DNA of 64,000 nucleotides. It comes from Agrobacterium tumefaciens (GTDB lineage: Bacteria > Pseudomonadota > Alphaproteobacteria > Rhizobiales > Rhizobiaceae). A program made the translations under genes and the position numbers. Shown here piece by piece: positions 7,906 to 31,607 of this stretch. The DNA lies in assembly GCF_005221325.1 (NCBI RefSeq), contig NZ_CP039889.1, forward strand, positions 620,001-684,000, read 5' to 3'. The notes under the pieces are model-generated. The model worked only from the letters and a program-made list of their open reading frames with translations, ran no database searches and was not told the DNA's origin. The first letter of the stretch is position 1; the number at the start of each line of letters is the position of its first letter.

Positions 7906-7915
7906 CACGTCGCGC

Positions 7916-8878: not shown

Positions 8879-10675
<1,797 letters not shown>

Positions 10676-10688
10676 CGGGAGGAGCCTT

Positions 10689-11240
10689 TCAGGGGTGGGT
10701 CAGGGAAGATTGCAGGCGGGCGACCGGTATCGGCGGGCCTTCCGCAAGGGAGACGGTATCGGAAAGCCATTTTTCGAAGGGCAGCGATTTGATCGTTTCG
10801 GGATCAGCCGCCGTGTCGAACAAAGCGCGATAACCATTGGTGAGATAAAGACCCACCGCTTCCGGCTGGCGGAAACCTGTCGTCAGATAGGCACGCGCAT
10901 AGCCCTGCCGCACCGCCTGCTGCTCCAGTTCCCGAAGCACTATTTTTGCAAGCCCCTGCCGGCGGTAGGCCGAATGGGTCCAGACCCGCTTGAACTCGGC
11001 GCTCTCTTCGTCGTAGCGCATGAAAGCGCCGCCGGCGATTGCCTTGCCGTCGCGCAGCAGCAGCAGGAAATTGCCCGAAGGCGGGCTGAAGGCTTCCGGC
11101 GGGTATTTGTTCATTTCCGCCCTGGCGCCTTCCGCGTTGAAAAATGTGCCGTAACGGCTGTCATATTCGAACAGCAACTCCTCCAGAAGCGGGGTTGCGA
11201 GCGGATCCTTGACAGATGTGTAGAGAAAACTGTCGCTCAT
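10689..11240 (-). CDS. GNAT family N-acetyltransferase, SnaA-like by context
   Basis: Cytoplasmic acetyl-CoA-dependent N-acetyltransferase, 183 residues from the ATG at 11240, which has AAGGA just upstream; the open frame continues upstream but overlaps the M20 gene. The GNAT core is visible: a strand [18 protein letters not shown], then [21 protein letters not shown], in which YRRQGLAK is the acetyl-CoA pyrophosphate-binding motif A, and a late [11 protein letters not shown] strand. In B. subtilis the equivalent operon position is held by SnaA, which N-acetylates S-substituted cysteines before C-S cleavage. That role is inferred from the neighbours: a transporter, an M20 deacylase and CmoJ/CmoO-like monooxygenases. 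Confidence 0.8.
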
Positions 11241-11262
11241 ATCCTTGTCCTCAATTTTAGCG

Positions 11263-12450
11263 TCAGGAGAGGTAGGCTTCGGCCAGACGCACCCAGAAGC
11301 GCGCTGCCGGTGCGATGATCGCATCGTTGAAATCATAGCGGGGGCTGTGCAGTGTCGCGCTTTCGCCATTGCCGACGAAGAGATAGGAGCCGGGCCGCTC
11401 CTGCAGCATGAAGGCAAAATCCTCGCTCGCCGTCCGGGGCTGAAAGGCGTCGGCGATCTGTGGAGCAGGAAAATGCCGTCTGGCGACATCGCGGGCGAAA
11501 GCGGTCTGTTCGGCGTGATTGATGACTGGCGGGAAACCACGAGAATAGGAGACATCCGCCGTTGCGCCAAAACTTTCCGCCTGCGCTTTGGCGAGCGCCG
11601 GCAGCCGCTCCTCCAGCCTGTCCCGCACGGCAGGTGAGAAGGCGCGCGCGGTGATTTGCAGCTCCACGCTTTCGGGAATGACATTTGATGCCGTTCCGCC
11701 ATGGATGGAGCCGACCGTCAGCACCGCCATCTCGCGCGGATCGACATTGCGCGAGACGATGCTCTGCAGGGCGGTGACGAAGCTGGCCGAGGCGAGAACC
11801 GGATCGATCGTCTCATGCGGTGCTGCGCCATGGCCGCCCTTGCCGATGATCCGCACGCTTGCCTTATCGACGGAGGCCATGGCCGGGCCTTCGACGAAGC
11901 CGAACTGGCCGGTTTCCACACCCGGCCAATTGTGCAGGCCGAAGACGGCATCGACGGGAAAGCGCTCGAACAGCCGGTCCTTTATCATCGCTCTCGCACC
12001 CGCGCCAATTTCCTCCGCAGGCTGGAAGATCAGCGTCAGCGTGCCGGAAAAATTCGAGGTTTCGGCGAGATACCGGGCAGCGGCAAGCAGGATCGCCGTG
12101 TGGCCATCGTGACCGCAGGCATGCATGATACCCGGTGTTTCGCTGGCATAGGCAAGGCCGGTCTCTTCGTGGATCGGCAGCGCATCGATATCAGCGCGGA
12201 TGCCGAGACGTTTTTCACCGTGGCCACGTTTTAGCGTGGCGACAACACCATGGCCACCGACACCCTCCGTCACCTCATAACCGAAAGACAGGAGATAACG
12301 GGCGATGAGCCCCGCCGTGCGCGTCTCCTTGAGCGAAAGCTCCGGATACCGGTGAAGATCATGCCGGATGGCTATGATTTCATCGATGAAGGCAAGGATT
12401 CCCCGTTCGGCGTCGTCCTGCGGACGCGCGCCGTCAATGCGGATATTCAT
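11263..12450 (-). CDS. M20 family amidohydrolase, SndA/HipO-like
   Basis: Zinc-dependent M20D amidohydrolase (N-acyl amino acid hydrolase), 395 residues, cytoplasmic. Metal-site segments are in order: IRADIDALPIHEETGL near residue 85, MHACGHDGHTAILLAAA with the conserved His-Asp-His, FQPAEEIGAG with the catalytic Glu pair, then GLHNWPG, and a late SEDFAFML. It follows the monooxygenase gene by 83 nt and precedes the GNAT gene by 22 nt. In the salvage pathway known from B. subtilis the M20 enzyme SndA removes the N-acetyl group after S-dealkylation, releasing cysteine. The start is supported by AGGAGACAGAACC ahead of the ATG. Confidence 0.87.
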   Translation of the reverse strand: MNIRIDGARPQDDAERGILAFIDEIIAIRHDLHRYPELSLKETRTAGLIARYLLSFGYEVTEGVGGHGVVATLKRGHGEKRLGIRADIDALPIHEETGLAYASETPGIMHACGHDGHTAILLAAARYLAETSNFSGTLTLIFQPAEEIGAGARAMIKDRLFERFPVDAVFGLHNWPGVETGQFGFVEGPAMASVDKASVRIIGKGGHGAAPHETIDPVLASASFVTALQSIVSRNVDPREMAVLTVGSIHGGTASNVIPESVELQITARAFSPAVRDRLEERLPALAKAQAESFGATADVSYSRGFPPVINHAEQTAFARDVARRHFPAPQIADAFQPRTASEDFAFMLQERPGSYLFVGNGESATLHSPRYDFNDAIIAPAARFWVRLAEAYLS

Positions 12451-12533
12451 GGTTCTGTCTCCTGCACAACGCTTTTTCGCGCCGCGTCTTGAAATCTGTG
12501 CCGGGCTGCGATCACCACCGCCTGGCCACGACC

Positions 12534-13874
12534 TTATGCGATGGCCTTGTCCGCGCTGCTTTCGCCGCCGGAATAGACACTTTCCTTGAAAGGCAGGCCG
12601 AGATGCTCGCGCAGCGTCGTCCCTTCCAGATGCGGATCGAAATAACCGCGCCGCTGCAGCACCGGGATGACGAGACGGATGAAATCATCCAGCCCTTCGG
12701 CAATCACCGGGAAGCCCAGAATGAAGCCATCGGCCGCATCATGCTCCACCCAGCGGATGATCTCGTCGGCGACCTTGTCCGGCGTACCGATGAAACCTTC
12801 GCGCGGCGTTGCGGCCTCCAGCGCCGCCTCGCGCAACGTCTGGTTCTTTTCTTTCGCGCGCCGCTTGATGCGGTCGGTCGTCGAGCGGAAGCTGTTCTTG
12901 CCGATCTCGCCAAGCTCAGGGAAAGGCTCATCCAGCGGATAGACGCTGAAATCATGATGATCGAAGAAACGGCCGAGATAAGCGAGCGCATCCTCTATCG
13001 TGATGAGGTTGCGGATGACGTCATATTTCGCCTCCGCCTCCTCCTGCGTCTCCCCGACGATCGGGCCGATGCCGGGGAAAATCTTGACGTCTGCCGCCGA
13101 TCGACCCTGTGCGACGGCGCTCTGCTTCACCCGCTTCAGGAAGGTCTGGTTTTCCTCCAGCGAGGCGGAATTGGTGAAGACGGCATCCGCATGTTTGCCC
13201 GCAAGACCGATCCCGGCATCGGAAGAACCGGCCTGGAACACCACCGGCTGCCCCTGCGGCGAACGCTGGATGTTCAACGGGCCTTCCACCTGGAAGAAAC
13301 GGCCCTTGTGGCCGAGCGTATGGAGCTTGGCGCGGTCGAAGAATTGCCCCGTCTCGCGGTTGCGCACGAAGGCGCCGTCGTCCCAGCTGTCCCACAGGCC
13401 TTTGATGACTTCGAGATATTCGTCAGCGATTTCGTAGCGCAACGCATGTTCGGGATGATTGCGGCTGTAGTTCTTCGCCGTCCCTTCAAGCGGCGTCGTC
13501 ACCGCGTTCCATCCGGCCCGTCCGCCGCTTAGAAGATCAAGCGAGCCGAATTGGCGCGCGATGGTGAAGGGATCGCTATAGGAGGTGGAAACAGTACCCG
13601 CGAGACCGATTTTCGAGGTGACGGCGGCGAGCGCGGAAAGGATGGTCAGCGGCTCGAACCGGTTGAGGAAATGCGGAATGGACTTGTCGTTGATGTAGAG
13701 GCCATCAGCAACGAAGGCGAAGGCGATGCCGGCAGCCTCCGCTTTCAGCGCGTTTTTTTTGAAGAAGTCGAAATTGACGCTGGCATCCACCGGGCTCTTG
13801 GGGTGCCGCCAGGCATTCATGTGCCCGCCGGGACCCTGAAGCATGATACCGAAACGGATTTTCTTTTTCGTCAT
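12534..13874 (-). CDS. LLM class flavin-dependent monooxygenase, CmoJ/YtnJ-like (NtaA/SnaA/DszA group)
   Basis: Two-component FMN-dependent monooxygenase with a luciferase-like TIM barrel, 446 residues. The ATG at 13874 is chosen because AGGAGG lies a few bases upstream; an in-frame start nine codons earlier lacks this. Group marks are GGHMNAWRHP near residue 20, SIPHFLNRFEPLTILSALAAVT, SGGRAGWNAVTTP and FQAGSSDAG. The length and the SIPHFLNRFEP and DFSVYPLDEPFPELG segments closely recall B. subtilis YtnJ (CmoJ), which cleaves the C-S bond of N-acetylated S-alkyl cysteines. It needs reduced flavin from a partner reductase; the one at 16674 is nearest. The substrate is inferred from the operon. 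Confidence 0.85.
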   Translation of the reverse strand: MTKKKIRFGIMLQGPGGHMNAWRHPKSPVDASVNFDFFKKNALKAEAAGIAFAFVADGLYINDKSIPHFLNRFEPLTILSALAAVTSKIGLAGTVSTSYSDPFTIARQFGSLDLLSGGRAGWNAVTTPLEGTAKNYSRNHPEHALRYEIADEYLEVIKGLWDSWDDGAFVRNRETGQFFDRAKLHTLGHKGRFFQVEGPLNIQRSPQGQPVVFQAGSSDAGIGLAGKHADAVFTNSASLEENQTFLKRVKQSAVAQGRSAADVKIFPGIGPIVGETQEEAEAKYDVIRNLITIEDALAYLGRFFDHHDFSVYPLDEPFPELGEIGKNSFRSTTDRIKRRAKEKNQTLREAALEAATPREGFIGTPDKVADEIIRWVEHDAADGFILGFPVIAEGLDDFIRLVIPVLQRRGYFDPHLEGTTLREHLGLPFKESVYSGGESSADKAIA

Positions 13875-13897
13875 GTCATTTCCTCCTGAGGACAAAA

Positions 13898-14899
13898 TCA
13901 CGCCGCCCGGGAAAGGCGATGCGTGGCCAAGAGTTCGATCGAGGCAAGCCGCTGATCGGCCCCGACATGCGGCGGCTCGATGATGAATTCTTCGATGCCG
14001 TGTTCTTCAGAAAGCGCGCGCAACGCCCGGTGAATATCGTCCGGCCCGCCATGCAGGACATTGGGCTTGCGCTCCTCGATGCGATAATCGCTATCGCCGG
14101 ACTGGCGGGCGAATTCTTCCGCCTGTTCGCGGCGACCGAGGTTGAACGCCCTGCCATCGCTCAGAAATACGCGGTAGATACGCTGGCCTTCGACCTGTCT
14201 TGCCGCATGGGCAGGATCGCTTGCGGCAAAAGCCGAAAGGGCAAGGATCGGCGCGCTCCCGCCGCTCGCTTCGCGGAAAGCCGAGAGGCTGCGGCGCAGA
14301 ACCTCCGGATCGCCATTGAGGTGGCCGGCAAAAACGAAACTCCATCCTTTCGACGCCGCAAGCCTTGCGCTTTCGGGGCTGGCGCCGAGCAGGAACCGCT
14401 CCGCGGCAACCGGCGGCACGGGTGTCGCCTGCAGTCCAGCCTGCGCATGGTTCAGCGGCGTGTTACCGGTGAGAAATCTCGTGAGCTCACCAAAAGCCGT
14501 CTCGAAATTCGGCTTACGGTCGGGATCATAGGCCTGCTGCAAAGCGGAGGTCGCAAGCGGCAGGCCGCCCGGCGTCTTGCCGATACCAAGATCGACCCGG
14601 CCGGGCGCCAGCGAAGAGAGGACATTGAAGACCTCGGCAACCTTGTAAGGGCTGTAATGCTGCAGCATGACGCCACCCGAACCGACGCGGATATGCGATG
14701 TCTTCGCCAATATCCATGCCACGAGCGCCTCGGGCGCCGAACCGGCAAGCTCCGGCGAATTGTGATGTTCTGCCACCCAGAACCGGCGATACCCCAGTTC
14801 CTCGGCGCGCCTGGCCAGATTGATCGTGTCGCGGAACGCGCTTGCCGCGTCCTCACCCGTTGGCACCGGGCTCTTGTCGAGCAAACTGAGCGTATACAT
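13898..14899 (-). CDS. LLM class flavin-dependent oxidoreductase, CmoO/YtmO-like
   Basis: Luciferase-like flavoenzyme of the group that begins LSLLDKSPV, 333 residues from the ATG at 14899, which follows GAGGTGACG; an ATG five codons earlier is less well placed. Characteristic segments are RFWVAEHHNSPELAGSAP, HIRVGSGGVMLQHYSPYKVAE and GRVDLGIGKTPGG. B. subtilis YtmO (CmoO) has the same size and opening and works next to CmoJ in S-alkyl-cysteine salvage. It is the first gene of the minus-strand operon running to 6837, and its promoter region is shared with the divergent Rrf2 gene. Confidence 0.85.
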   Translation of the reverse strand: MYTLSLLDKSPVPTGEDAASAFRDTINLARRAEELGYRRFWVAEHHNSPELAGSAPEALVAWILAKTSHIRVGSGGVMLQHYSPYKVAEVFNVLSSLAPGRVDLGIGKTPGGLPLATSALQQAYDPDRKPNFETAFGELTRFLTGNTPLNHAQAGLQATPVPPVAAERFLLGASPESARLAASKGWSFVFAGHLNGDPEVLRRSLSAFREASGGSAPILALSAFAASDPAHAARQVEGQRIYRVFLSDGRAFNLGRREQAEEFARQSGDSDYRIEERKPNVLHGGPDDIHRALRALSEEHGIEEFIIEPPHVGADQRLASIELLATHRLSRAA

Positions 14900-15202
14900 C
14901 GTCACCTCGTGCATCTTTGATGCATAGTTTGTCTACCGATTTTATATTCTAATAAAGGATGTTTGTTCCATGCTGCGAGGGGATCAGAGAAAATATTGTT
15001 TTCAGTCAGATTTTCGAATGCTGCCCTGATCAAAGCGCTCGAAAATGCTGAAAACCGTGCGCCAATCGGCTGCAGCAAGCCACTTTCACCGGAGATCTTA
15101 CGGAAACGGGCTTGCACCGGAATTCGCTAAAAACTACTAAGTAAGTTGGGAATAATACGATCCGGCATTGTGACTGTGCCGGTTCTCTTTTCGGATCAGG
15201 CA
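14900..15202. promoter_or_regulatory. Divergent promoter region between CmoO-like gene and Rrf2 regulator
   Basis: This 303-nt gene-free stretch should hold the promoters of the long minus-strand operon and of the Rrf2 gene. Two AT-rich dyad-like sites are visible: TTTTATATTCTAATAAAGG at 14940-14958, about 41 nt upstream of the minus-strand start, and a CTACTAAGTAAG element at about 15134-15145, centred on the 9-nt palindrome TACTAAGTA. They are candidate operators for the adjacent Rrf2 protein. No riboswitch or small gene was recognised. Confidence 0.45.
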
Positions 15203-15678: not shown

Positions 15679-16623
15679 TTACTGCCGGCGCAAATCATCC
15701 ACCAGTGATGCGATGAGCCCGGATTCGCTAACGCCCTCGATAAGACCAAGGCGCGCCATCAGGATTTCAAGCGTGATGGCATTGTTTCGAACTGAACGAA
15801 AAGTGACGTTTTCCGCTCCGACCTGCGCCGCATCGATATTCGTCGCGAGACTTGATATCTGCGCCTTCAGCAGTTCGATAGCGAGAAATATTTCCCCTAT
15901 GACTGGTCTTGCCGCACCATCATCGGCCAGCCTGTCGATCAGGAGCCCTGAAAGCTCACGCTGTTTTTGCCCCAGAGCCACTGCGGCCTTCAACAAGGTG
16001 GAAACGGAGGCGGCGAGATTTCCCGCACCCCGGGCAAGGAACACCACCTGATCGGCGCGCAGCAGGCCCTCCCATGTACTATTCGGCCGATTGCGCAAAA
16101 CGACGAGCAGGGGCTGCCCGGACGTATTGACGGCAGGGACGACGATCCAGTCCGCATTGCCCCTCGCCGATCGCGCAATGTCGTCGGGAAGCCGCAGGGC
16201 ATAGTCGTCGGCGGTCACCGGGACCGCTTGATCCAGCTCGCCACCGGATGTCGCCAGCGCGAAGGTCTCACCAAGATCGAGGCGGGCGAAGAGGGCCTTG
16301 CGCTGCTCTTCGCTGCCCGCATTCCGGATGAATTCAAGCGCGGTGAAATGTTCGACAAGATCATGCGCCGCCTCGGCATTGACTGCGGAAATGATCGAAA
16401 GTGCCTGCGAGAGAACATCGTTGGTTATATCCGCCCCGCCGAGTTCCGTTGGAACCGAAAGAGCGAGAAGACCGGAGCGGGCGATCCGGGCATGGATTTG
16501 CCCCGAATTTTCAATGGCGCATTTTTCGGCGATCGTCCGGGCGACGGTCAGCACATCCATATCCGCGCCGAGGCGTGGAGGAACGAAACGAAGTCTTTCG
16601 CCAAGAGGCGTGACGGATCCCAT
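15679..16623 (-). CDS. Acyl-CoA dehydrogenase-like protein (DszC/SfnB superfamily), short form
   Basis: Shortened member of the acyl-CoA dehydrogenase fold, 314 residues against the usual 390-410. The N-terminal helical domain is recognisable (ARIARSGLLALSVPTELGGADITNDVLSQALSIISAVNAEAAHDLVEHF), as is a C-terminal helical domain. The middle beta domain is reduced, and the usual flavin-contacting TGxKxxxT region is not evident. The ATG at 16623 follows GAGGGAG and is preferred to an upstream in-frame TTG. It is the second gene after the flavin reductase in a minus-strand pair, so it may be a DszC/SfnB-like flavin monooxygenase or a degenerate one. Activity is uncertain. Confidence 0.65.
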   Translation of the reverse strand: MGSVTPLGERLRFVPPRLGADMDVLTVARTIAEKCAIENSGQIHARIARSGLLALSVPTELGGADITNDVLSQALSIISAVNAEAAHDLVEHFTALEFIRNAGSEEQRKALFARLDLGETFALATSGGELDQAVPVTADDYALRLPDDIARSARGNADWIVVPAVNTSGQPLLVVLRNRPNSTWEGLLRADQVVFLARGAGNLAASVSTLLKAAVALGQKQRELSGLLIDRLADDGAARPVIGEIFLAIELLKAQISSLATNIDAAQVGAENVTFRSVRNNAITLEILMARLGLIEGVSESGLIASLVDDLRRQ

Positions 16624-16673
16624 GCTCAACTCCCTCAAACAACGACAAAATGAAAGCGCCGAACGGCCAACGC

Positions 16674-17219
16674 TCAGTCCACTGAATGATAACGCCCGTT
16701 TTGATAGAGCAGCGAATGGCCCGATCCGACACGAATCGCCTCCACCTTGCCGATGACGATGACGTGGCTATGGCGCTCGATCGCCTCTTCGATGGTGCAA
16801 TCGATCGCAGCCACGGCATCTTCGAGGATGGGTGCGCCGCTCGCCAGCCTTGTCCACTCCGCGCCACGATACCGGTCGGGACCCTTCAGGCCGCCAATGC
16901 CGGCAAACTGGTTGGCGACGAACTGATGGTTCGTGCCGATGATGTTGACGGCAAAGTGACCGAAATGCTGCACCACCGGCCATGTCGATGAGGAGCGGTT
17001 GAGCGCCACCAGGATTCGCGGCGGATCGACCGACAAAGCGGTGGCCGATGTCACGGTCGCGCCCGTTCGCTCATCCCCTTCGCCTGCGGTAATCACGCTG
17101 ACGCCGCCGCCTAATGTTCTCAGCGCCGCCTTGAGACTATCTGCATCCGCCGCCTTGCCGGCGACCGGATCGCGGAGATTGATGAATTGTTGGTCCTTGG
17201 CCGCATATTGCAATGTCAT
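16674..17219 (-). CDS. Flavin reductase (HpaC/DszD-like NAD(P)H:FMN reductase)
   Basis: Small flavin reductase-like domain protein, 181 residues, with FMN-binding split-barrel features: GGGVSVITAG near the N-terminus, GATVTSATALSVDPPRILVALNRSSSTW and FAVNIIGTNHQFVANQFAG. Such proteins supply reduced FMN to two-component monooxygenases (SsuE/DszD role). The ATG at 17219 is used because CAGGAG precedes it; an ATG five bases upstream hits a stop at once. It is the only obvious flavin reductase in the window, whereas eight LLM monooxygenases are present, so it may serve several of them. It is the first gene of a pair with the acyl-CoA-dehydrogenase-like gene. Confidence 0.85.
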   Translation of the reverse strand: MTLQYAAKDQQFINLRDPVAGKAADADSLKAALRTLGGGVSVITAGEGDERTGATVTSATALSVDPPRILVALNRSSSTWPVVQHFGHFAVNIIGTNHQFVANQFAGIGGLKGPDRYRGAEWTRLASGAPILEDAVAAIDCTIEEAIERHSHVIVIGKVEAIRVGSGHSLLYQNGRYHSVD

Positions 17220-17289
17220 CGCATGGCTCCTGAAAACAGCTGAATTGTTCAATAGCTAGCAGCGGCAACGGGGGCAGAAATAGACATCG

Positions 17290-17322
17290 TTTTCCATAAT
17301 CATAATATTCTATAGAAATAAT
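17290..17322. promoter_or_regulatory. AT-rich candidate operator upstream of the flavin reductase
   Basis: The site contains TTTTCCATAATCATAA followed by the perfect 10-nt palindrome TTCTATAGAA. It lies about 70-100 nt upstream of the flavin-reductase start. The same TTTTCCATAA core followed by TATTCTATA occurs at 18969-18999 upstream of the small ORF/ssuD unit. Variants occur at 25257, 19840 and 45433, so this is probably a shared regulator site of the sulfur island. The regulator is unknown. Confidence 0.5.
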
Positions 17323-17375
17323 GTTTTATATGCCGCCTTTACGTTTATACCGCTGCACGCCTTTCCGTGGACGGA

Positions 17376-18545
17376 TCAGGATCCGGACACCAGCTTGACG
17401 TTGCCGCCATGGCCGCCACCACCGAAAACCTGTTTCGCCCCAAACGACGAACGGATCTGGTTTCGCGGCCCGCCGAGGCCGATTTCCGGAAACAGCAGCT
17501 CGGACAGGCGATAGGCTTCTTCAAGATGCGGATAACCGGAAGCAATGACGGTATCGATGCCAAGTGCCTGATATTCCCTGAGCCGTGCCGCCACCGTCTT
17601 CGGCGAACCCACAAGTGCCGTACCTGCGCCAGAGCGCACGAGACCGATGCCCGCCCATAGGTTGGGGGAAACTTCCAGCTTGTCACGCCGGCCATTGTGC
17701 AGCGCTTGCATTCTCGACTGCCCGACGGAATCCGACGCCTTGGAGAAGACTTCCTGGGCAGAGGCGATGGTCTCATCGGAAAGCTTCGAAATCAGCTTCT
17801 CCGCATCGGCCCAGGCTTCCTCGTCGGTTTCGCGCACGATGAAGTGCAGACGGATGCCGAAGGTAACCTCCCGCCCCTTTTTCGCGGCAGCGGCGCGCAC
17901 CTTGGCGATTTTTTCCGCCACCTGTGCCGGCGGCTCACCCCACGTCAGGTATTTGTCGGTGATGCCAGCCGAAAACTCGATACCGGCATCGGAGGAACCG
18001 CCGAAATAAAGCGGTGGGCGCGGCTCCTGCACCGGCGGCAGACCGAGCTTGGCATCCACCGCCTTGATATATTTGCCGTCGAGGCTGCCCTTGCCGGTTT
18101 CGATCAGAGAATTGAACACCTGAAAGAACTCGTCCGCGTGATCGTATCGCTCGTCATGCGGCAGGAAGATGCCGTCACCCGCCAGCTCCTGAGCGCTGCC
18201 CCCGACCACGATATTGAGCAGCAACCGGCCGTGGGACACGCGATCAAGCGTGGAAGCCAACCGCGCATAATAGGCGGGTGAAGCGACACCCGGACGGATG
18301 GCGACAAGGAACTTCAGCTTTTCGGTATAGGCGGCAAGATTGGCCGCGAGAATGAAGGATTCCTCACAGGCGACACCGGTGGGAATGAGCACGCCGGAAT
18401 AACCGAGCCTGTCCGCCGCCTGCGCTATCTCACGGAAATATCCGGGATCGGAGGGACGCGACAGATCGTCCGAACCAAGATAGCTGCCGTCGCCGGAGGT
18501 GGGTATGAACCACAGGAAATCGAGTGGTTTGTCATGTGTGCTCAT
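17376..18545 (-). CDS. ssuD: Alkanesulfonate monooxygenase SsuD
   Basis: FMNH2-dependent alkanesulfonate monooxygenase, 389 residues from the ATG at 18545 (AAAGGA upstream). It converts aliphatic sulfonates to aldehyde and sulfite. The protein follows the SsuD pattern along its length: [32 protein letters not shown] with a conserved Cys a few residues on (CEES), [55 protein letters not shown] and [19 protein letters not shown]. The tail after residue 370 is Gly-rich (FGGGGHGG) and not typical. No ssuA, ssuB or ssuC lies beside it, so sulfonate uptake would depend on other transporters. Reduced FMN probably comes from the adjacent reductase. Confidence 0.93.
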
Positions 18546-21183: not shown

Positions 21184-22362
21184 TCAGCCACCCGCCGCCT
21201 TGATGCTTTGACGGCCGAGAATCGTGCGGATCATGTGACTTTGCGGCGCATGCGCCCTTGCCGTGATGGCATCGCGATGATGTCGCTCGAGATTGTAGTC
21301 CCGGCGCAGGCCGCGATTGCCGCCAAGATCCAGCGCCAGATCGGTCACGGCCACCGCATTGTCGATCACCACATGGCGAACGGCCAGCGCATCCGTTCCG
21401 ACCCGCTCTCCCGCATCGATATCGCGGGCGACGGACAGAAGCAGGCGCCGGTTTGCCGCAAGAAGTACCTCGATCTGGCCGAGACCTTCCTGAATACGCG
21501 GAATGGAGGAAAGCGGCGCACCGAGGCTTGCCGGAACATGGCCCGTCAGATGGCGCAGCAGATCATCCCGCGCCGAAATCGCAACGCCATGATAAACGGA
21601 AGCCAGAAGCGCGAAGAAATTATAGCCGTCGGCCTCATCGCGCCGCAGCGGCTCGTCCGCGGGCTGTTCGGCAACGATGTCTGCAAGCGGTACCCTTACA
21701 TCCTTCAGGACGAGGTCGTGGCTGGCGGTGGCATACATGCCAGTCGCCTCCCATGCCTTTTCCTGGGCGATGCCAGGCGCATCGAGCGGGACCAGAAGCT
21801 GGATGAGGCGCGGCGTTTCTTCCGTCGTCACGGCAAGCACGATCGCCCATTTCAGCCCCGGCAGGCCGGTGACGAAGCTCTTGCGGCCATTGACCACCCA
21901 GACATCGCCGTCGATCCGCGCCGTTGTTTCCGGCAGGCCGCCATGAGCCGGCGAACCAACGCCCGGCTCCGCCTGCGCATTGTTCAGAAGCGCCAGCTCC
22001 CTGTTATTGGCGGCCAGCACCTTTGCTGAAAGAGCAGCCGGCCATTTGCCGCGCCGGATGGCCGCATGAACGCTGTAATGCATGGCCAGGATGAGCGCTG
22101 TGGACGGATCACCCTTGGCAATGGCCGTAATGACGGCATGCGCCGTCTCCATGCCCTCGCCCCGACCGCCATCCTTCTCAGCCGTCACGAGACCGAGCAG
22201 ACCCGACTTGAAAAGCGCTTCGAAATTGCCGGCAGCGAATTCACCGCTTTTGTCATGTTCGGCCGCCGTCTGGCTGAAATCTTCGGCCAGCGCGGTTGCG
22301 ACGGCAATGGAGCTGGATTGCTGTTCCTGCGGGCGCGGAACGGCGGATAAAGCCCCACTCAT
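21184..22362 (-). CDS. Acyl-CoA dehydrogenase-like flavin monooxygenase, DszC/SfnB-like
   Basis: Protein of the acyl-CoA dehydrogenase superfamily, 392 residues, close to full length. N-terminal helices (FEALFKSGLLGLVTAEKDGGRG, ITAIAKGDPSTALILAMHYSVH), a middle beta domain (WVVNGRKSFVTGLPGLKWAIVL) and C-terminal helices are all visible. In sulfur-limited bacteria such proteins (SfnB, DszC) act as FMNH2-dependent monooxygenases on sulfur compounds instead of as acyl-CoA dehydrogenases. The start overlaps the stop of the DszB-like gene by four bases (ATGA), so the two are translationally coupled. This pairing with a DszB-like protein supports a desulfurisation role. Confidence 0.82.
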   Translation of the reverse strand: MSGALSAVPRPQEQQSSSIAVATALAEDFSQTAAEHDKSGEFAAGNFEALFKSGLLGLVTAEKDGGRGEGMETAHAVITAIAKGDPSTALILAMHYSVHAAIRRGKWPAALSAKVLAANNRELALLNNAQAEPGVGSPAHGGLPETTARIDGDVWVVNGRKSFVTGLPGLKWAIVLAVTTEETPRLIQLLVPLDAPGIAQEKAWEATGMYATASHDLVLKDVRVPLADIVAEQPADEPLRRDEADGYNFFALLASVYHGVAISARDDLLRHLTGHVPASLGAPLSSIPRIQEGLGQIEVLLAANRRLLLSVARDIDAGERVGTDALAVRHVVIDNAVAVTDLALDLGGNRGLRRDYNLERHHRDAITARAHAPQSHMIRTILGRQSIKAAGG

Positions 22363-23390
22363 GCCACCGCCCTCTCACTTGCCGTCACGAAACGGTCGTC
22401 GATCCAGGCAGCGAGCTCGAAGTCGTTTTCAAGGAAACTCCATTGGTGCAGGAAGTCCTTGTAGTGGCCGACAGCGGCAACAAGGTCGGCATCAAGGCCG
22501 AGACCAAGATGGCGGTGAACATCCGGCCCGTTGGCAGCCAAAACCTGTTCTTCAGTCGCACCCGCCTCGCGCGCGATGAAACGGCGCGTCTCTTCCGGAT
22601 GCTGTTCCGCCCAGAGCGAGGCTTTGCGAATGGCGCCAACCAGCCGTTCCACCAGATCGGGACGTTCATCTGCAAGCCGTCCATCAACCGTCAGCACGCG
22701 GGGCGATCCGGAGTTGATGCGTATCTTCGGATCGGGGTGGAAGCCGAATTCGACCACCTGCACGGCCCCGATCAGGTTCGCGGCGGCAATACCGGCCGTT
22801 CCCTTGACGAAAATCGCATCGACCTCACCGCGCAGCAGCGCGATGATCTCCTCACCGAAGGATTGCCGGCGCTTCAACCCGAAAAGCGACGGTCCCTCCT
22901 GCGAGGCCAGCACCGAATCCTTGATGACAATATCCTTCAGTTCGATGTCCTCAACCGTCAGCCCTTCCAGCGAAAGCGCGGAGACAATGCCCTTCAGCGC
23001 CGTCGCCCGCATGAAATCGACAATGCCTTCCGGGCGGCGCGGCACGCCGAAACGGCGGCCGACAAGATCGGCAAGCGAGCGGATACCCGTTTCCGGCAGG
23101 GTGATGATCGCCTGAAACTCATCCGTCCAGGTAATGCCGATGAGACGCGTATTACGCCCCTCCGAGCGGGCGCGGATGGGCGGCACATTGCCGCCGTGGC
23201 GGAAGGACCATTCCAGCGTGTGGTTGAAATGGCTCTGGCGAACGGAACGGTCAGGCGAATCGATGATGGATTTCAGCGATATACCGACCTCCTCGAAGGT
23301 TTCGCCGAGATAACCGAGCTGTGCCGCCAGCCCCACGGGTGTCGGCACCGGGCAGCGTGTGTACCAGATTTCAGAAAGTGTCGTGCTCAT
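22359..23390 (-). CDS. DszB-like sulfinate desulfinase homologue
   Basis: A 343-residue protein with a periplasmic-binding-protein fold but no signal peptide. It resembles DszB, the 2-hydroxybiphenyl-2-sulfinate desulfinase, in the catalytic region. Cys13 in YTRCPVPTP matches DszB Cys27 (NCPVPN). His54, Arg64 and Gly67 in SHFNHTLEWSFRHGG match DszB His60, Arg70 and Gly73 with identical spacing between them. Such genes are usually annotated as sulfonate-binding proteins because the fold is shared with SsuA. It would cleave a C-S bond of a sulfinate and release sulfite in the cytoplasm. It lies between a binding-protein gene and the DszC-like gene in one operon. The true substrate is unknown. 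Confidence 0.75.
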   Translation of the reverse strand: MSTTLSEIWYTRCPVPTPVGLAAQLGYLGETFEEVGISLKSIIDSPDRSVRQSHFNHTLEWSFRHGGNVPPIRARSEGRNTRLIGITWTDEFQAIITLPETGIRSLADLVGRRFGVPRRPEGIVDFMRATALKGIVSALSLEGLTVEDIELKDIVIKDSVLASQEGPSLFGLKRRQSFGEEIIALLRGEVDAIFVKGTAGIAAANLIGAVQVVEFGFHPDPKIRINSGSPRVLTVDGRLADERPDLVERLVGAIRKASLWAEQHPEETRRFIAREAGATEEQVLAANGPDVHRHLGLGLDADLVAAVGHYKDFLHQWSFLENDFELAAWIDDRFVTASERAVA

Positions 23391-23458: not shown

Positions 23459-25066
23459 TCAGGATGCGGCGATATGCGCGAAGGCGAGGCTTCCCGCGAC
23501 ACCTTCGGCACCGATGGTGTGGTCAGCGATGCGTTTGTTGTAGATGGTGATTTCCGGTGCCGCGACGATATCGATGGCGGGCACGTCCTCAACGAGGATT
23601 TGCTGGATTTCCTTCCATTGCGCGACGCGTTTGTCCGGATCGATCTCGATGGCAGCGGCTTCGAGAAGCGCATCCACCTTCGGATTGCTGTAGGCAGCAC
23701 CGTTGGAGAAGGGCACGCCCTTCTTGAAGTTCTTCGACCAGTAAAGCCGCTGCACACCGACGGTCGGATCGAAGAGATTGCTCATGCCCTCATAGGCAAA
23801 ATCGAAATCGCGATCCGTGTAGATGCGCTTGGTATAGGTGGCGAAATCCTGCGTTCGCACCGTTACATCCACGCCGACTTTCGCCAGCGCCTGGCGAATA
23901 TAGTCCGCACCACGCGGATAGGCCTCGGTGCTTGGCACATAATCCAGATTGAGCTTGAAACGGATGCCATCCGCGCCACGCTTGTATCCGGCCTCATCCA
24001 ACAGTGCTTCGGCCGCCTTAAGATCGATCGGATAGGTTTTCAGATCATCCACGAACCATTTCGTCAGCTTCGGATTGATTGGCCCAGTGATCGTCGCGCC
24101 ATAACCGAAATTGACGGTGTTGAAGATGACGTTGCGGTCGATCACATGCGCGAAAGCGCGGCGGACACGCACGTCCTTGAAGACATCCTTTTCAAGGTTG
24201 AACTCTACGCGACTGACGGAATTAGAATATTGATAGCCGTTCGTCTCAAAACCGAGGCTCGGCAGCTCCTTCAGCCGGTCGAGATCGCTATAGGCGACAG
24301 GCGTGCTGGGCGCGAGATCGATCTCGCCGGTTTCGATGGCAATCGCCCGGGCGGAAGCGTCGGGAATGAAGCGGACGATCAGCTTGTCGAGGTATGGACG
24401 GGGCGCATCCCAATAATCGGCATTGCGCTCAAAAACGATGTGGCTGCCGCGCACCCATTCCTTGAACTTGAACGGACCAGTGCCGATAGGAGCAAGATTG
24501 ACCGGATTTTCCGTCACTTTCGTGCCTTCATAGAGATGTTTCGGCACGATGGGCGTTTCGGCGGCGGCGAGCGCCGTGATCAGGTATGGCGCGGGTTTGG
24601 AAAGAACCAGAACCGCCGTCAGATCATCCGGCGTCTCGACAGTAGTGAGGTTCAGAAATGTATTGCGACCGCGCGGATGCACTTCCTTGATGGTGTTGAT
24701 GGAGAAAGCCACATCGGCGGAGGTGAAGGGTTTGCCGTCATGCCACTTCACACCGGGCCGCAGATTAAAGGTGTAACGCAGGCCATCCGCGCTCACTTCC
24801 CAGGATTTGGCCAGAAGCGGCTTGGGATTGAGATCGAAATCATAGGTCAGCAGACCCTCGGTCACCTTTGGCGATATATAGACGGAATTATAGGCCGTAT
24901 GTGCGATCGTCGTCAGCACCGGCGGCTCCGATGAGATGAGCAAGGTGGCCGTGCCGCCACTTGCCGGCTCCGCCGCCTGCAGCTTCAGCCCCGGCAACGA
25001 CACCACGCCAAGCGCCACCGACGCCAGCAGAAATCCACGCCGCGTCGTCTGGTTGAAAATAGTCAT
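23459..25066 (-). CDS. ABC transporter substrate-binding protein, family 5, Tat signal
   Basis: Periplasmic solute-binding protein of the oligopeptide/nickel family, 535 residues from the ATG at 25066. That start exposes a twin-arginine signal, TTRRGFLLASVALG, and follows GGAGAGGG; an upstream in-frame ATG would bury it. Family-5 marks are KWHDGKPFTSADVAFSI, GTGPFKFKEW and RNADYWD. It is divergent from the permease/ATPase operon that starts at 25336 and shares its promoter region, so it is the primary binding protein of that importer. Its downstream genes are DszB-like and DszC-like, which points to an organosulfur ligand. It resembles the binding proteins at 34038 and 36455. Confidence 0.9.
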   Translation of the reverse strand: MTIFNQTTRRGFLLASVALGVVSLPGLKLQAAEPASGGTATLLISSEPPVLTTIAHTAYNSVYISPKVTEGLLTYDFDLNPKPLLAKSWEVSADGLRYTFNLRPGVKWHDGKPFTSADVAFSINTIKEVHPRGRNTFLNLTTVETPDDLTAVLVLSKPAPYLITALAAAETPIVPKHLYEGTKVTENPVNLAPIGTGPFKFKEWVRGSHIVFERNADYWDAPRPYLDKLIVRFIPDASARAIAIETGEIDLAPSTPVAYSDLDRLKELPSLGFETNGYQYSNSVSRVEFNLEKDVFKDVRVRRAFAHVIDRNVIFNTVNFGYGATITGPINPKLTKWFVDDLKTYPIDLKAAEALLDEAGYKRGADGIRFKLNLDYVPSTEAYPRGADYIRQALAKVGVDVTVRTQDFATYTKRIYTDRDFDFAYEGMSNLFDPTVGVQRLYWSKNFKKGVPFSNGAAYSNPKVDALLEAAAIEIDPDKRVAQWKEIQQILVEDVPAIDIVAAPEITIYNKRIADHTIGAEGVAGSLAFAHIAAS

Positions 25067-25335: not shown

Positions 25336-26325
25336 ATGTCGAATTCGAAAAGGATTTTATCCCAGGCAAGACGGGTGGCCATTCAGGCCATTCCGACAGT
25401 TCTCGGTATCGTCATCCTGAACTTCTTCCTGCTGCAACTGGCACCCGGCGACGCGGCCGATGTGCTGGCGGCGGAAGCAGGTTCTGCAACCGTGGAGACC
25501 ATGGCGGAAATCCGCTCCCGCTTCGGTCTTGATTTGCCGGTTCTGCATCAGCTGATGAATTATCTCGGCAATCTGGCCCAGTTCAGCCTTGGTTTTTCGC
25601 CGCGATACGGCATGCCGGTGGCAGACCTCATCGGCCAGCGCCTGCCCGGCACGCTTGCGCTGATGGGCGCAGCGCTTGGCATCGCGATTTTCGTCGGCGT
25701 ATTCCTTGGCTCGATCATGGCGCTTTTCTCCGGCAAGCTGCCGGACCGGATCATTTCGATCGGCTCGTTGATCTTTTATTCCGTGCCGGGTTTCTGGATC
25801 GGCCTGATGCTGATCCTGACCTTTTCGGTGAAGCTCGGCTGGCTTCCCTCAGGCGGTGACAGCACCATCGGCAGCAGTCTTACCGGTTTCGCCGCCTTTC
25901 TTGACAGGTTGCGTTACATCGTCCTTCCCGCTTTGTCGCTCGCGCTTTATTTTCTGGCGATCTATGCCCGCCTAACCCGCGCGGCGATGCTGGAGGTGAA
26001 ATCCCAGGACTATGTGCGAACGGCGCGTGCCAAGGGTGTCTCGCCGCTCCGGCTCACCACACGCCATATCCTTCGCAACGCGCTGATCCCCATCACCACC
26101 ATGGCCGGCATGCATATTGGCGGCCTCTTGGGCGGTGCGGTCGTGGTCGAGACCGTCTTCAGCTGGCCGGGCCTTGGCCGTCTCGCCTTTGAAGCCGTGA
26201 TGGCGCGGGATTTCAGCGTGCTGCTCGGCATTCTGCTTCTCTCCTCCCTCGTCGTCATTATCGTCAATGCGGCCGTGGACCTGTTGCAGGCATGGCTTGA
26301 CCCCCGCATCGGAGAAAGCCGATGA
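25336..26325 (+). CDS. ABC transporter permease, DppB/GsiC-like
   Basis: Inner-membrane permease, 329 residues. It begins with a short charged segment, then helix 1 (IPTVLGIVILNFFLLQLAPGD), and has the GD-A pattern after helix 1 and a C-terminal LDPRIGESR usual for DppB proteins. The EAA loop is RTARAKGVSPLRLTTRHILRNALIP. The ATG follows GGAG at close spacing. The last bases overlap the next gene by four (ATGA). It is the first gene of a five-gene plus-strand operon (permeases, two ATPases and an aldo/keto reductase). Confidence 0.9.
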   Translation: MSNSKRILSQARRVAIQAIPTVLGIVILNFFLLQLAPGDAADVLAAEAGSATVETMAEIRSRFGLDLPVLHQLMNYLGNLAQFSLGFSPRYGMPVADLIGQRLPGTLALMGAALGIAIFVGVFLGSIMALFSGKLPDRIISIGSLIFYSVPGFWIGLMLILTFSVKLGWLPSGGDSTIGSSLTGFAAFLDRLRYIVLPALSLALYFLAIYARLTRAAMLEVKSQDYVRTARAKGVSPLRLTTRHILRNALIPITTMAGMHIGGLLGGAVVVETVFSWPGLGRLAFEAVMARDFSVLLGILLLSSLVVIIVNAAVDLLQAWLDPRIGESR

Positions 26326-27317
26326 ATTCCTCCCATACATCAGCGGTTCTCGACACGGCCGAACTCGGCGCTGAAGAGACCAATCCGAAACCGAAGAAGC
26401 CCGAAGAAAAGGCCTGGCCGTATATCCATGCCCCGGATGCGCTTTCGGCCCGCTCCGTTTCCGTGCCCCGGCGCGGACTACGGCGGGAACTGAAAATCTT
26501 CCTGACCAATCCCAACGCCATCGTCGGGTTGCTGTTTCTCGCCACCGTCATCGTCACCGCACTGATCGCCCCGTTGATCTATCCCGGCGATCCCCTGGAA
26601 ATGGTGGCCCGCCCGTTCCTGTGGCCGGGCCAGAACGCGGCCTATCCGCTCGGAACCGATTCCATGGGCCGGGATGTTCTGGCCGGCATCGTGCACGGCG
26701 CGCGCATTTCGCTCACCGTCGGTGTCGTGGCAACGCTGATCGGCCTCACCATCGGCATCGCGGTTGGCGCCTTCGCCGGTTATTTTGGTGGCATCATTGA
26801 TGATATCCTCGTCAAGCTGATCGAAATCTTCCAGACCTTGCCGAATTTCGTGCTCTTGGTGGTGCTGGTCGCCATCGCCCAGCCGTCTGTCACCACGGTC
26901 ACGTCAGCCATCGGCATCATCACCTGGCCGCTCGTTGCGCGTCTTACCCGTGCGGAATTCCGCGCCATTCGCGAAAAGGATTATGTGCTCGCCGCCCGCA
27001 GCCTGGGTTATGGCCATGCGCGCATCGTTTTTCAGGAAATCCTGCCCAATGCGCTGCCGCCGATCATCGTCACCTCCTCGGTCATGGTGGCGGGCGCGAT
27101 CCTCATGGAAGCAGCGCTGTCTTTCATGGGGCTCGGCGATCCCAACCGGGTCTCCTGGGGTTCGATGATCGGTTCGGGCCGCGATGTCATCCGCACCGCC
27201 TGGTATCTGACCGCCCTTCCCGGCCTTGCCATCGTCTTCACCGTCATTTCGTTGAACCTCATCAGCGATGGCCTCAACGATGCGCTCAACCCCCGTTTTT
27301 CGGAGGAACGCCGATGA
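26322..27317 (+). CDS. ABC transporter permease, DppC-like, with N-terminal extension
   Basis: Inner-membrane permease, 331 residues. It carries a roughly 55-residue hydrophilic N-terminal extension rich in Lys, Pro and Glu (NPKPKKPEEKAWPYIHAPDAL) before the first helix, longer than in most DppC proteins. The core shows YPLGTDSMGRDVLAGIVHGARIS, the EAA loop ARSLGYGHARIVFQEILPNALPP and the C-terminal SFMGLGDPNRVSWGSMIG. It overlaps both neighbours by four bases. The extension could contact the ATPases or be dispensable; nothing in the sequence decides this. Confidence 0.9.
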   Translation: MNSSHTSAVLDTAELGAEETNPKPKKPEEKAWPYIHAPDALSARSVSVPRRGLRRELKIFLTNPNAIVGLLFLATVIVTALIAPLIYPGDPLEMVARPFLWPGQNAAYPLGTDSMGRDVLAGIVHGARISLTVGVVATLIGLTIGIAVGAFAGYFGGIIDDILVKLIEIFQTLPNFVLLVVLVAIAQPSVTTVTSAIGIITWPLVARLTRAEFRAIREKDYVLAARSLGYGHARIVFQEILPNALPPIIVTSSVMVAGAILMEAALSFMGLGDPNRVSWGSMIGSGRDVIRTAWYLTALPGLAIVFTVISLNLISDGLNDALNPRFSEERR

Positions 27318-28289
27318 GCAAACTGATCGAAGTCCACGATCTCTCCGTCAGCTTCGGCTCGGCCCAGCCGGTAAAAGGCGTCAGTTTCGATGTCAGCCCC
27401 GGCGAAATGCTGGCGATCGTCGGCGAAAGCGGCTCCGGCAAATCCCTGACGGCGCTTGGTCTGATCGGCCTTTTGCCCTCCCACGCCAAGACCGGCGGGC
27501 GGGTTCTGCTCGAGGGCCACGATCTGCTGCCGCTTTCCGAGCGGCAATGGCGCGGCATTCGCGGCCGGGATATCGGTATGATCTTTCAGGAACCGATGAC
27601 CTCGCTCAACCCCGTGCTGACGGTCGGCGAGCAGATCATCGAGGTGCTGCGCATCCATGAGAAGATCGACCGGCATCAGGCGCGCAAGCGCGCCATCGAG
27701 CTGCTGGACCTCGTCAATATTCCCGATGCCGGCCGCCGGGTGGATGATTATCCGCACCAGCTGTCCGGCGGCATGCGCCAGCGTGTGATGATCGCCATCG
27801 GCGTCGCCTGCAATCCGAAACTCCTGATCGCCGACGAGGCGACGACGGCGCTCGACGTGACCATTCAGGCACAGATCCTGCAACTGCTCGACAATCTGCG
27901 CCGCGATCTCAACATGGCCGTCATCCTCATCACCCACGATCTCGGTATCGTGGCGCAATGGGCGGACCGGGTGATGGTCATGTATGCCGGCCGCAAGGTC
28001 GAAGAGGGATTGCCGGAACCGGTTTTCTCCAATCCCTACCATCCCTATACGCGCGGGCTGCTCGCGGCTTCTCCGCGCGCGGAAGACGGCCAGCATTATC
28101 GCGACGGGCCGCTCATCGAGATACCCGGCTCCATCGTTTCCGCCACGGGCGAGCGGGGCTGCGCCTTCCGGCCCCGCTGTCCGAGCGCCCGCGGTTTCTG
28201 CGGGCAGTTCGTGCCGCCACTGCGGCTTATCTCGGAAGGCCGCCATGCCGCGTGCCCCTTCGTATCCCCCACACACCAGGAGGTTTCCG

Positions 28290-28312
<23 letters not shown>
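27314..28312 (+). CDS. ABC transporter ATP-binding protein, DppD-like
   Basis: Cytoplasmic ATPase, 332 residues. Walker A is GESGSGKS at 37-44, the signature LSGGMRQR has the Met variant typical of DppD/OppD, and Walker B is [12 protein letters not shown]. The C-terminal oligopeptide-transporter domain has the cysteine pattern [14 protein letters not shown], with a further Cys near the end, as in DppD proteins that bind an iron-sulfur cluster. The 3' end overlaps the next ATPase gene by 23 nt, which is unusual inside this operon but leaves AGGAGG for the next start. Confidence 0.92.
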
Positions 28313-29225
<913 letters not shown>

Positions 29226-29243: not shown

Positions 29244-30299
29244 ATGGTCGACTATCGCTATCTCGGACGCAGCGCGCTGAAAGTTTCACCGCTGAGCCTC
29301 GGCACGATGATGTTCGGAGGCCCGACGCCGGATGACGTGGCCTTCCGCATCATCGACAAGGCGCGCGAACAGGGCATCAACTTCATCGATACCGCTGATG
29401 TCTATCACGACGGCAAGTCGGAAGAAGTCGTCGGTCGCGGCATCAAGGCCACGCGCGATCACTGGGTTCTGGCGACGAAATTCGTCAATTCCCATACCAA
29501 GGGTCCGAACCTCGGCGGCCATTCGCGCAAGTGGGTGATCGAGACCGTCGAGAATTCGCTACGCCGTCTGAACACCGACTATATCGACATTCTCTATTTC
29601 CACCGCGCCGTCTTCGACGCGCCGCTGGAAGAGCCGGTGCGCGCCATTGCCGATCTTATCCGCGCCGGCAAGCTGCGCTATTTCGGCGTTTCGAACTTCC
29701 GCGGCTGGCGCATCGCCGAGATTTCGCATCTGGCCGACCAGCTCGGCATCGACCGACCGGTTGCCAGCCAGCCGCTCTACAACATCGTCAACCGCACGGC
29801 CGAAGCCGAACAGCTGCCGGCGGCCAATCATTATGGCCTTGGTGTCGTGTCCTATTCACCGCTCGCACGCGGCGTGCTGACCGGCAAATATCAGCCGGGC
29901 GAACAGCCGGGCGCCGATACGCGCGTCGGCCGTGGCGACAAGCGCGTTCTGGAAACGGAATGGCGTCCGGAATCGGTTGAAATCGCCCAGAAGGTTGCGG
30001 CCCATGCCGCTTCAAAGGGTGTTTCGGCGGCGGATTTCGCACTCGCCTGGGTGCTGAACAACAAGTTCGTCACCGCAGCCATCACCGGCCCGCGCACCGA
30101 AGAACATTGGGACGGATATGTCCGCGCGCTCGATGTGAAGATCGATGCGGAAGACGAAGCGCTGGTCGATAGCCTTGTTACGACAGGCCATCCCTCCACG
30201 CCCGGTTTCAACGATCCGAGCCATCCCGTCGAAGGCCGCGTGCCGCGCAATGTCGAACCCGCGCCCCGCCCGGCCCTCAAGCCGCGCGCGGTTGCCTGA
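29244..30299 (+). CDS. Aldo/keto reductase
   Basis: NADPH-dependent aldo/keto reductase, 351 residues, cytoplasmic. The catalytic tetrad is visible as Asp49, Tyr54, Lys79 and His120 (FIDTADVY, LATKF, LYFHR). The late segment AITGPRTEEHWDGYVRAL fits the cofactor-binding region. AAAGGAG precedes the ATG by eight bases. Its place at the end of the importer operon suggests that it reduces a carbonyl product, such as an aldehyde released by oxidative C-S cleavage. That role is inferred. A hairpin at 30317 separates it from the following DszC/SfnB-like gene. Confidence 0.88.
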   Translation: MVDYRYLGRSALKVSPLSLGTMMFGGPTPDDVAFRIIDKAREQGINFIDTADVYHDGKSEEVVGRGIKATRDHWVLATKFVNSHTKGPNLGGHSRKWVIETVENSLRRLNTDYIDILYFHRAVFDAPLEEPVRAIADLIRAGKLRYFGVSNFRGWRIAEISHLADQLGIDRPVASQPLYNIVNRTAEAEQLPAANHYGLGVVSYSPLARGVLTGKYQPGEQPGADTRVGRGDKRVLETEWRPESVEIAQKVAAHAASKGVSAADFALAWVLNNKFVTAAITGPRTEEHWDGYVRALDVKIDAEDEALVDSLVTTGHPSTPGFNDPSHPVEGRVPRNVEPAPRPALKPRAVA

Positions 30300-30368: not shown

Positions 30369-31607
30369 ATGTCCAATCCGAAACTGCAGACAAACACCAC
30401 CGATAATTCCGGCGTACCGAGCCGGGATGAGATTCTGGCCCGGGCGAAGGACATTGGGGCTATCGCGGCCAGAGATGCCGCCCGCCGCGAGCGCCAGCGC
30501 GAACTGCCCTTCGATATCTTCGCGCTTATCAAGGAAGCCAAGATCGGCACGCTGCGCATCCCCGAGGCCAAGGGCGGACCGGGCGGCTCGATTGCGGACT
30601 ATATCGAAGTGCTGATGATCCTCGGCGAAGCCGACAGCAATATTCCGCACGCGCTTCGCAGCCACTTCAATTTCACTGAAAACCTCGCTCTCGCACCCAT
30701 CGAGCTGGAGGATCGGCGGCATCTCGAACATGTGCTTGCCGGTAAACTCTTCGCCGGCGCCAGCACCGAACAGGGCACCAAGCGCCCCGGCGAAATCACC
30801 ACACGGCTGAGTGCCGATGGCGACCGCTATCGGCTGAACGGCCGCAAATGGTATGCGACAGGCACGGCCTTTGCCGATTTCGGCACATTCAGCGCCATTG
30901 GTGACGACGAGCAGCCGATCGGCGTGCTCATTCCGCTCGATCGCCGGGGCATCACGATCCTCGATGACTGGGACAGCATGGGCCAGCGCATGACGGCGAG
31001 CGGCGGCGTGCTGCTCGAAAATGTCGAGGTACTGCCGCATGAATTGACAACCCGCAAGCTCGGCAGCCAGATCGGCCGCCACAGCTCGGCCATGCGGCAG
31101 CTGCACCTCGCCGCTTCGGCCGCCGGCGCCGTTCAAGGCGCGCTGAATGACGGTGTGGAGTATGTTCTACGCCAGGCGCGCACGACACTTCATAGTGCTG
31201 CGGAAACCGCCAATCAGGACCCCTTCGTGCAGAAGATGCTGGGCGAAATCAGCGCCGGCGCTTTCGCCGTCAAGACTTTGATCCGCGAAGCCGCTCGAAC
31301 GCTAGACCGGACCGCTGTCGCCTTTGCCACCGGTGACGAAGAGGCGATAGAGGCAGCCTTGCTGGAAGGCTCGCTCGCCACCGCCCGCACCCAGATCATC
31401 GCCTCGCAGCTTTCTTTGACGGTCGCCACCAATCTCTACGAACTCGGCGGCGGCTCGGCGACATCGAGCGAGCGGAATTTCGACCGCCACTGGCGCAACA
31501 TCCGCACCGTCTACAATCACAATCCGCTTGCCCACAAGGCGCGCGTCATCGGTGACTATTACCTCAACGGCACCACGACACACCTTCGGGAAGGCCGGGT
31601 GTTCTGA
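30369..31607 (+). CDS. Acyl-CoA dehydrogenase-like flavin monooxygenase, DszC/SfnB-like, second copy
   Basis: Full-length acyl-CoA-dehydrogenase-fold protein, 412 residues. N-terminal helices include LPFDIFALIKEAKIGTLRIP followed by KGGPGGSIADYIEVLMILGEADSNIPH. The beta domain has RLNGRKWYATGTAFADF, and the C-terminal part ELGGGSATSSERNFDRHWRN followed by IRTVYNHNPLAHKARVIGDY resembles the DszC/SfnB group (the HWRN-R-T segment) more than true acyl-CoA dehydrogenases. The usual catalytic Glu of dehydrogenases is not recognisable. It probably oxygenates a sulfur or carbon centre with reduced FMN. It follows the importer operon by 69 nt and precedes a LysR gene by 37 nt. Confidence 0.85.
   Translation: MSNPKLQTNTTDNSGVPSRDEILARAKDIGAIAARDAARRERQRELPFDIFALIKEAKIGTLRIPEAKGGPGGSIADYIEVLMILGEADSNIPHALRSHFNFTENLALAPIELEDRRHLEHVLAGKLFAGASTEQGTKRPGEITTRLSADGDRYRLNGRKWYATGTAFADFGTFSAIGDDEQPIGVLIPLDRRGITILDDWDSMGQRMTASGGVLLENVEVLPHELTTRKLGSQIGRHSSAMRQLHLAASAAGAVQGALNDGVEYVLRQARTTLHSAAETANQDPFVQKMLGEISAGAFAVKTLIREAARTLDRTAVAFATGDEEAIEAALLEGSLATARTQIIASQLSLTVATNLYELGGGSATSSERNFDRHWRNIRTVYNHNPLAHKARVIGDYYLNGTTTHLREGRVF

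Follow-up and report, generated by a model that had tools for sequence, protein, structure and literature searches.

A gene named like part of an importer, located in a 64,000-nucleotide stretch of an Agrobacterium tumefaciens genome of 6.1 Mb (contig NZ_CP039889.1, positions 620001–684000; the whole stretch is referred to here as the window), most likely encodes, judging from its sequence, an enzyme that releases sulfur as sulfite from a natural compound and whose nearest characterised relative removes sulfur from fuel molecules. The gene, the first of two related copies in the window, extends from 22359 to 23390 on the minus strand, starts with ATG and encodes a DszB-like putative desulfinase of 343 aa without a signal peptide. 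With a probability of about 0.7, copy 1 is proposed to be a cytoplasmic, cofactor-free sulfinate desulfinase that belongs to a sister family of DszB and acts at the end of a 4S-type organosulfur pathway. The proposal is based on homology, retained catalytic residues, a predicted fold and the gene order together with its conservation; the reaction is presumed by analogy with the published DszB mechanism, and the order of the steps is suggested by the gene families.

The assignment of copy 1 to a DszB-like group, and not to the aliphatic sulfonate and taurine binding proteins SsuA/TauA, had been put forward in the initial annotation and was supported by profile, tree and fold comparisons. Copy 1 shares about 27% identity with DszB (Rhodococcus, PDB 2DE2/2DE3; Paenibacillus TdsB), and its predicted model is closer in fold to DszB than to binding proteins. 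In the tree, the copy 1 family forms the sister group of DszB, outside the DszB clade (14 DszB rows in a clade of their own, 100/99), and a 100/99 branch sets apart 12 SsuA/TauA-type controls; placement inside SsuA/TauA, named beforehand as the result contrary to the desulfinase assignment, was tested and did not occur. The controls were 12 of 20 candidates, eight being left out due to a wrong reading frame; E. coli SsuA, TauA and two others are annotated as such, and the rest were labelled from match and sequence. Copy 1 reached 67.4 bits against the SsuA family model TIGR01728, below its cut-off of 163.5, and 41.1 bits against the Pfam NMT1 model PF09084, above the cut-off.

The homologue searches yielded the best 120 of 922 matches, the best 120 of 1608 and all 82, each search having scored only the 8000 candidates that shared most words. 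Among the listed relatives with a name, most go under 'ABC transporter substrate-binding protein' or a like label, in keeping with the suspicion that the protein is misread as a binding protein, but the misnaming is not universal, because some records already carry the names 'desulfurase', '2'-hydroxybiphenyl-2-sulfinate desulfinase' or 'dibenzothiophene desulfurization enzyme B'. The homology is therefore already known to automatic annotation, and what is added here is the placement in a sister family, the difference in the pocket, the conservation of the gene setting and the Cys/Ser pairs described below. No published work on this sister family was found in the open-licence literature searched.

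The reported lack of a signal peptide was borne out. The highest 11-residue hydropathy within residues 1–40 was 1.20 for copy 1 and 1.40 for copy 2, compared with a median of 2.29 for the 12 controls, 11 of which fell within 1.92–2.62 (the lowest value, 1.17, comes from a control with its start placed too far upstream), and with 2.65 for the adjoining SBP_bac_5 binding protein (23459–25066). The first strand of the predicted model of copy 1 is formed by residues 7–12, and no export signal was seen, as judged from the hydropathy scan and this strand. Another PF09084 protein of the same genome (C2:438743–439111) has a frame without a signal-like start and a hydropathy of 0.54.

Cys13 (codon at 23352–23354, minus strand) lies in the context YTRCPVPTP, and the HMMER alignment pairs Cys13, His54, Arg64 and Gly67 of copy 1 with the catalytic Cys27 and with His60, Arg70 and Gly73 of DszB; the segment from His54 to the RxGG motif (Arg64-x-Gly66-Gly67) is encoded at 23190–23231 on the same strand. 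The four residues and the CPVP context are thus present as initially described, whereas the spacing, said to be that of DszB, agrees for His–Arg (10) and Arg–Gly (3) but not for Cys to His (41 versus 33 in DszB). In a joint alignment of 380 rows, including 240 listed relatives of both window copies (P0001–P0240), 79 DszB relatives and the 12 controls, Cys13 was found in 239 of the listed relatives (with one gap), and His54, Arg64 and Gly67 were each found in all 240. The corresponding residues were kept in 74, 76, 76 and 76 of the DszB relatives, the others being gaps except for one Gly at the Cys position, and matched in 0, 0, 0 and 9 of the controls. The match of catalytic residues between the copy 1 family and DszB is judged, from these alignments, to go beyond chance. 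Among the 14 other PF09084 places of the same genome, no RxGG was found in the matching frame for 13; in the 14th, the motif precedes the first Met of the frame. According to a published account (PMC6100217), RxGG is highly conserved among DszB homologues, and a calculation presented there pairs Ser25 of DszB with His60; the position of Ser25 is Thr in 232 of the 240 listed relatives (Thr11 in copy 1).

The presumed pocket is different. Trp155 of DszB, present in 79/79 DszB relatives, is replaced by Thr in 235/240 listed relatives (Thr130 in copy 1), and position 225, which is Trp in 54 and Phe in 23 of the 79 DszB relatives, corresponds to Lys196 in all 240. W155 and W225 line the pocket of DszB. 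Further substitutions place Arg12 at the position of Asn26 (239/240), His57 at that of Tyr63 (240/240) and Arg231 at that of Ser253 (240/240), and a short insert around 220–224 is near-invariant in the listed relatives. Since W155 is replaced by Thr, a substrate resembling 2'-hydroxybiphenyl-2-sulfinate (HBPS) cannot be taken for granted, and the differing pocket residues make a substrate other than that of DszB likely, without naming one. From the aligned positions Arg12, Lys196, Arg231 and Thr130, the natural substrate would be polar and probably anionic; the naming of a specific compound was set aside, no evidence for one having been found.

The gene of copy 1 overlaps by four bases (22359–22362, ATGA) that of a DszC/SfnB-like putative flavin monooxygenase of 392 aa with an acyl-CoA-dehydrogenase fold (21184–22362, minus strand). 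The overlap was confirmed and the proposed coupling supported, the B-to-C order and the ATGA overlap being those of a true dsz operon, in which dszB likewise directly precedes the DszC-type gene. The partner scored 69.2 bits against the NCBIfam DszC model NF043015 (cut-off 850) and 106.7 bits against the SfnB model TIGR04022 (cut-off 430.9). Its best PDB matches, 5z8t/5gj7, are labelled acyl-CoA dehydrogenase type 2 domain protein, and no useful publications on them were found in the open-licence literature; the match to methanesulfinate monooxygenase 6u76 is weak (3.6e-10). His95, Trp204 and His371 of the partner are invariant in six aligned rows that include a genuine DszC, where these positions presumably have active-site roles.

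The setting was examined in loci from named genomes, 80 of 549 relatives being kept, among them many near relatives; the nearest, with 97% identity to the copy 1 protein, come from Agrobacterium arsenijevicii, Rhizobium nepotum and an A. tumefaciens metagenome-assembled genome. Assignment by best BLAST hit to the window copies, with some uncertainty in remote loci (those of Comamonas, for example), gave 67 loci with a copy-1-type gene and 13 copy-2-type loci. Near the copy-1-type genes were found SBP5 binding proteins (67/67), permeases (65/67), a luciferase-type monooxygenase (65/67), a DszC/SfnB-type gene (65/67), an aldo/keto reductase (61/67) and a flavin reductase (17/67), so the neighbouring ABC importer noted at the outset is a conserved companion. 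The DszC-like gene is directly next on the same strand in 50/67 loci, and the junction, measurable in 52, is a 4-base overlap in 17; in 31 the genes stand 9–31 bases apart, and four show another arrangement. An SfnG-like monooxygenase precedes the desulfinase gene in 29/67 loci; where the DszC-like gene follows, the order monooxygenase–desulfinase–DszC-like is as in dszA–dszB–dszC of pMyong1, whose two junctions both read ATGA. With respect to such dszA/dszC-type flanks in the window, a monooxygenase of neither type reaches the curated cut-offs. An NmrA-like gene comes next after the copy-2-type desulfinase in 12/13 loci, and both copies occur in one run in a Sinorhizobium meliloti pSymA locus (L012) and in 7/67 loci (Devosia, Ensifer, Neorhizobium).

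The remaining genes of the window include those of the importer. The SBP_bac_5 protein (23459–25066, minus strand, inferred start codon, PF00496 2.7e-93), with a signal-like N-terminus, is probably the importer's own binding protein; its gene lies upstream of copy 1 on the same strand. The divergent genes between 25336 and 31607, all on the plus strand, encode two peptide-type permeases (25336–26325 and 26322–27317), two ATPases (27314–28312 and 28290–29225, the latter with an inferred start codon), an aldo/keto reductase (29244–30299, PF00248 3.1e-69) and an SfnB/DszC-like putative monooxygenase (30369–31607). The ABC labels are derived from annotated A. vitis genes (L006), to which the two permeases are 85% and 84% identical and the ATPases 82% and 88% (the last to an oligopeptide/dipeptide ATPase). 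The SfnB/DszC-like protein scored 291 bits against TIGR04022, under the cut-off of 430.9, and matched PDB 8cda, TdsC and methanesulfinate monooxygenase (6u76, E 1.7e-31). A flavin reductase (16674–17252, minus strand, PF01613 8.2e-39) could serve the monooxygenases. Copy 2 (41449–42501, minus strand, 350 aa) has 57% identity to copy 1, the motifs WYTRCPAP and RQGG and a PDB match to DszB (8.5e-13); it is followed on the same strand by an overlapping gene for an NmrA-like NAD(P)-binding protein (40548–41462, PF05368) and by an SfnG-like luciferase-type monooxygenase (39373–40557) with 187 bits against TIGR04021, under the cut-off of 382.95, and a match to PDB SfnG 8t0u (8.4e-42). Eight luciferase-type monooxygenases (PF00296) occur within about 33 kb (12534–45293). 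Of these, three NtaA/DmoA members, an SsuD and an MsnO8 exceed their cut-offs; SsuD-, SfnG- and KPN_01858-like members stay under theirs. The stretch 6837–14914 contains, as read from its open reading frames, two amino-acid-type binding proteins, a fused permease–ATPase and an M20-type amidohydrolase, followed by an NtaA-type and an MsnO8-type monooxygenase, and resembles a ytm-type S-alkylcysteine salvage set.

The distribution of the family is patchy. Among 398 genomes drawn from the phylum, 63 matched at E 0.001, and the seven with strong matches (E < 1e-90) were counted as carrying the family; in a family-level draw at E 1e-40, matches were found in 5/151 genomes, and neither of the two further members of the window's genus in this sample had one. 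In S. meliloti L012, an annotated sulfite oxidase (16550–17944) lies beside the two-desulfinase locus. The enzyme was dropped as a general neighbour and argument, because none of the 80 other loci carries one within stretches of up to 10 kb on each side. In a study of S. meliloti, three further sulfite-oxidising genes, including SMa2103, are reported to rise with taurine (PMC3511301); identity of the L012 gene with SMa2103 could not be shown. A distant Rhizobium branch (L008 7962–9137 and L009 5953–7119; 23–24% identity) has YTNCP, the His and RxGG; the L008 gene adjoins an annotated homocysteine S-methyltransferase, and that of L009 adjoins 2-hydroxyacyl-CoA dehydratases, rhodaneses and a sulfate permease.

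In one genus the family was found in 15 of 25 genomes searched, and all 15 carry a tandem pair in which one copy has WYTRCPVP and the other WYTHSPVP (L097–L099, L140–L151). The latter has Ser in place of the catalytic Cys and keeps His54, His57, Arg64, Gly67 and Lys196. A Cys/Ser pair is also present in one genome of a second genus (L096), with Gln at His57. Further Ser copies, in Burkholderia arboris (L005 5246–6319) and Devosia (L060 1843–2946), are less complete because His54 is also lost, being Ile and Tyr, respectively. In DszB, Cys27Ser is described as inactivating the enzyme, and the mutant was crystallised with substrate (PMC6100217). That a Ser copy has been retained points to a binding or regulatory partner, or to other chemistry.

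In the proposed pathway, the peptide-type ABC importer would bring in an organosulfur compound, the sulfur of which would be oxidised by the DszC/SfnB-like flavin monooxygenases, and luciferase-type (SfnG/DszA-like) monooxygenases would cut one C–S bond, leaving a sulfinate. Arg64 and Gly67 would hold the sulfinate, the thiol proton of Cys13 would pass to the sulfur-bearing carbon and SO2 (sulfite) would leave, with Thr11–His54 standing in for the Ser25–His60 dyad of DszB; the aldo/keto reductase would reduce a carbonyl in the product. Like the dszABC-encoded 4S pathway, the island would combine DszC-type oxygenation, luciferase-type C–S cleavage, a desulfinase and a flavin reductase; unlike it, the island is not a dszABC operon, contains more monooxygenases, an importer and an aldo/keto reductase, and is expected to act on a different substrate. 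The SfnG–MsuC–MsuD sulfone pathway, with which the island shares SfnG-like and SfnB-like genes, oxidises the sulfinate to a sulfonate before C–S cleavage, whereas here a desulfinase would replace both steps.

Several observations weigh against a sulfinate desulfinase. The role remains putative, based on sequence, model and analogy; the published chemistry was established on an aromatic sulfinate, and we know of no natural aromatic or vinylic sulfinate here. The superfamily still matches SsuA models, the SsuA/TauA rows of the tree are long-branched (two being flagged as possibly falsely joined to each other), the partner falls under both NCBIfam cut-offs and the W155 of DszB is lost. The search patterns behind the 80 loci include one with the Cys (WYTRCP), so that the Cys in these loci is not independent evidence; among copy-1-type loci the flavin reductase is infrequent and the DszC-like partner was not found in 12/67, and the sulfite oxidase of L012 has no counterpart near the genes of the 80 other loci.

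The alternative that survives best, albeit unlikely, is an enzyme of periplasmic-binding-protein fold in which the same cysteine donates a proton and another group leaves (decarboxylase-like or other C–S/C–C protonation). RxGG, Cys and His all follow DszB, DszB lies far above such enzymes in the fold-comparison Z of the predicted model, and the organosulfur setting, with SsuD and NtaA/DmoA above and SfnG- and SfnB-like proteins below the cut-offs, also speaks against this alternative. An improbable reading is that of an SsuA/TauA-kind sulfonate- or sulfinate-binding protein without an export signal, or a cytoplasmic carrier: the NMT1 and TIGR01728 matches and the prevailing names favour it, and the Ser copy kept beside the Cys copy suggests a non-catalytic role in the family. 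It was set aside on profile, tree, residues and fold, as the TIGR01728 cut-off is missed, the signal peptide is lacking, the catalytic residues are absent from the controls (Gly67 apart) and an importer-kind binding protein is already next door. Slightly less probable still is that the DszC-like partner oxidises a sulfinate to a sulfonate, like methanesulfinate monooxygenase, with the DszB-like protein doing no more than presenting the substrate to it. The gene coupling and the resemblance of the 30369–31607 product, and weakly of the partner, to 6u76 would fit, but conservation of Cys, His and Arg in 239–240 of 240 listed relatives would be needless, and a DszC/SfnB-type gene was not found in 8/13 copy-2-type loci. 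DszB proper, acting on dibenzothiophene-type compounds, shares the catalytic residues and B–C gene order but is very improbable and was set aside, given the separate clade, the low identity, the loss of both pocket tryptophans and a partner under the DszC cut-off.

The activity for which DszB is known is directed at an oil compound. A sister family that has the catalytic residues of DszB and occurs next to an importer in plant-associated bacteria makes the natural role of Dsz enzymes testable, and a group of proteins deposited under the name 'ABC transporter substrate-binding protein' are probably enzymes. More tentatively, and with considerable doubt, the family may represent the natural form of 4S chemistry, by which rhizobia and their relatives would take sulfur from a polar, anionic compound derived from plants or soil, with the fuel-active DszB as an offshoot; the active enzyme of one genus may be obligately paired with a naturally occurring Ser variant of itself that serves as a substrate-binding or regulatory subunit.
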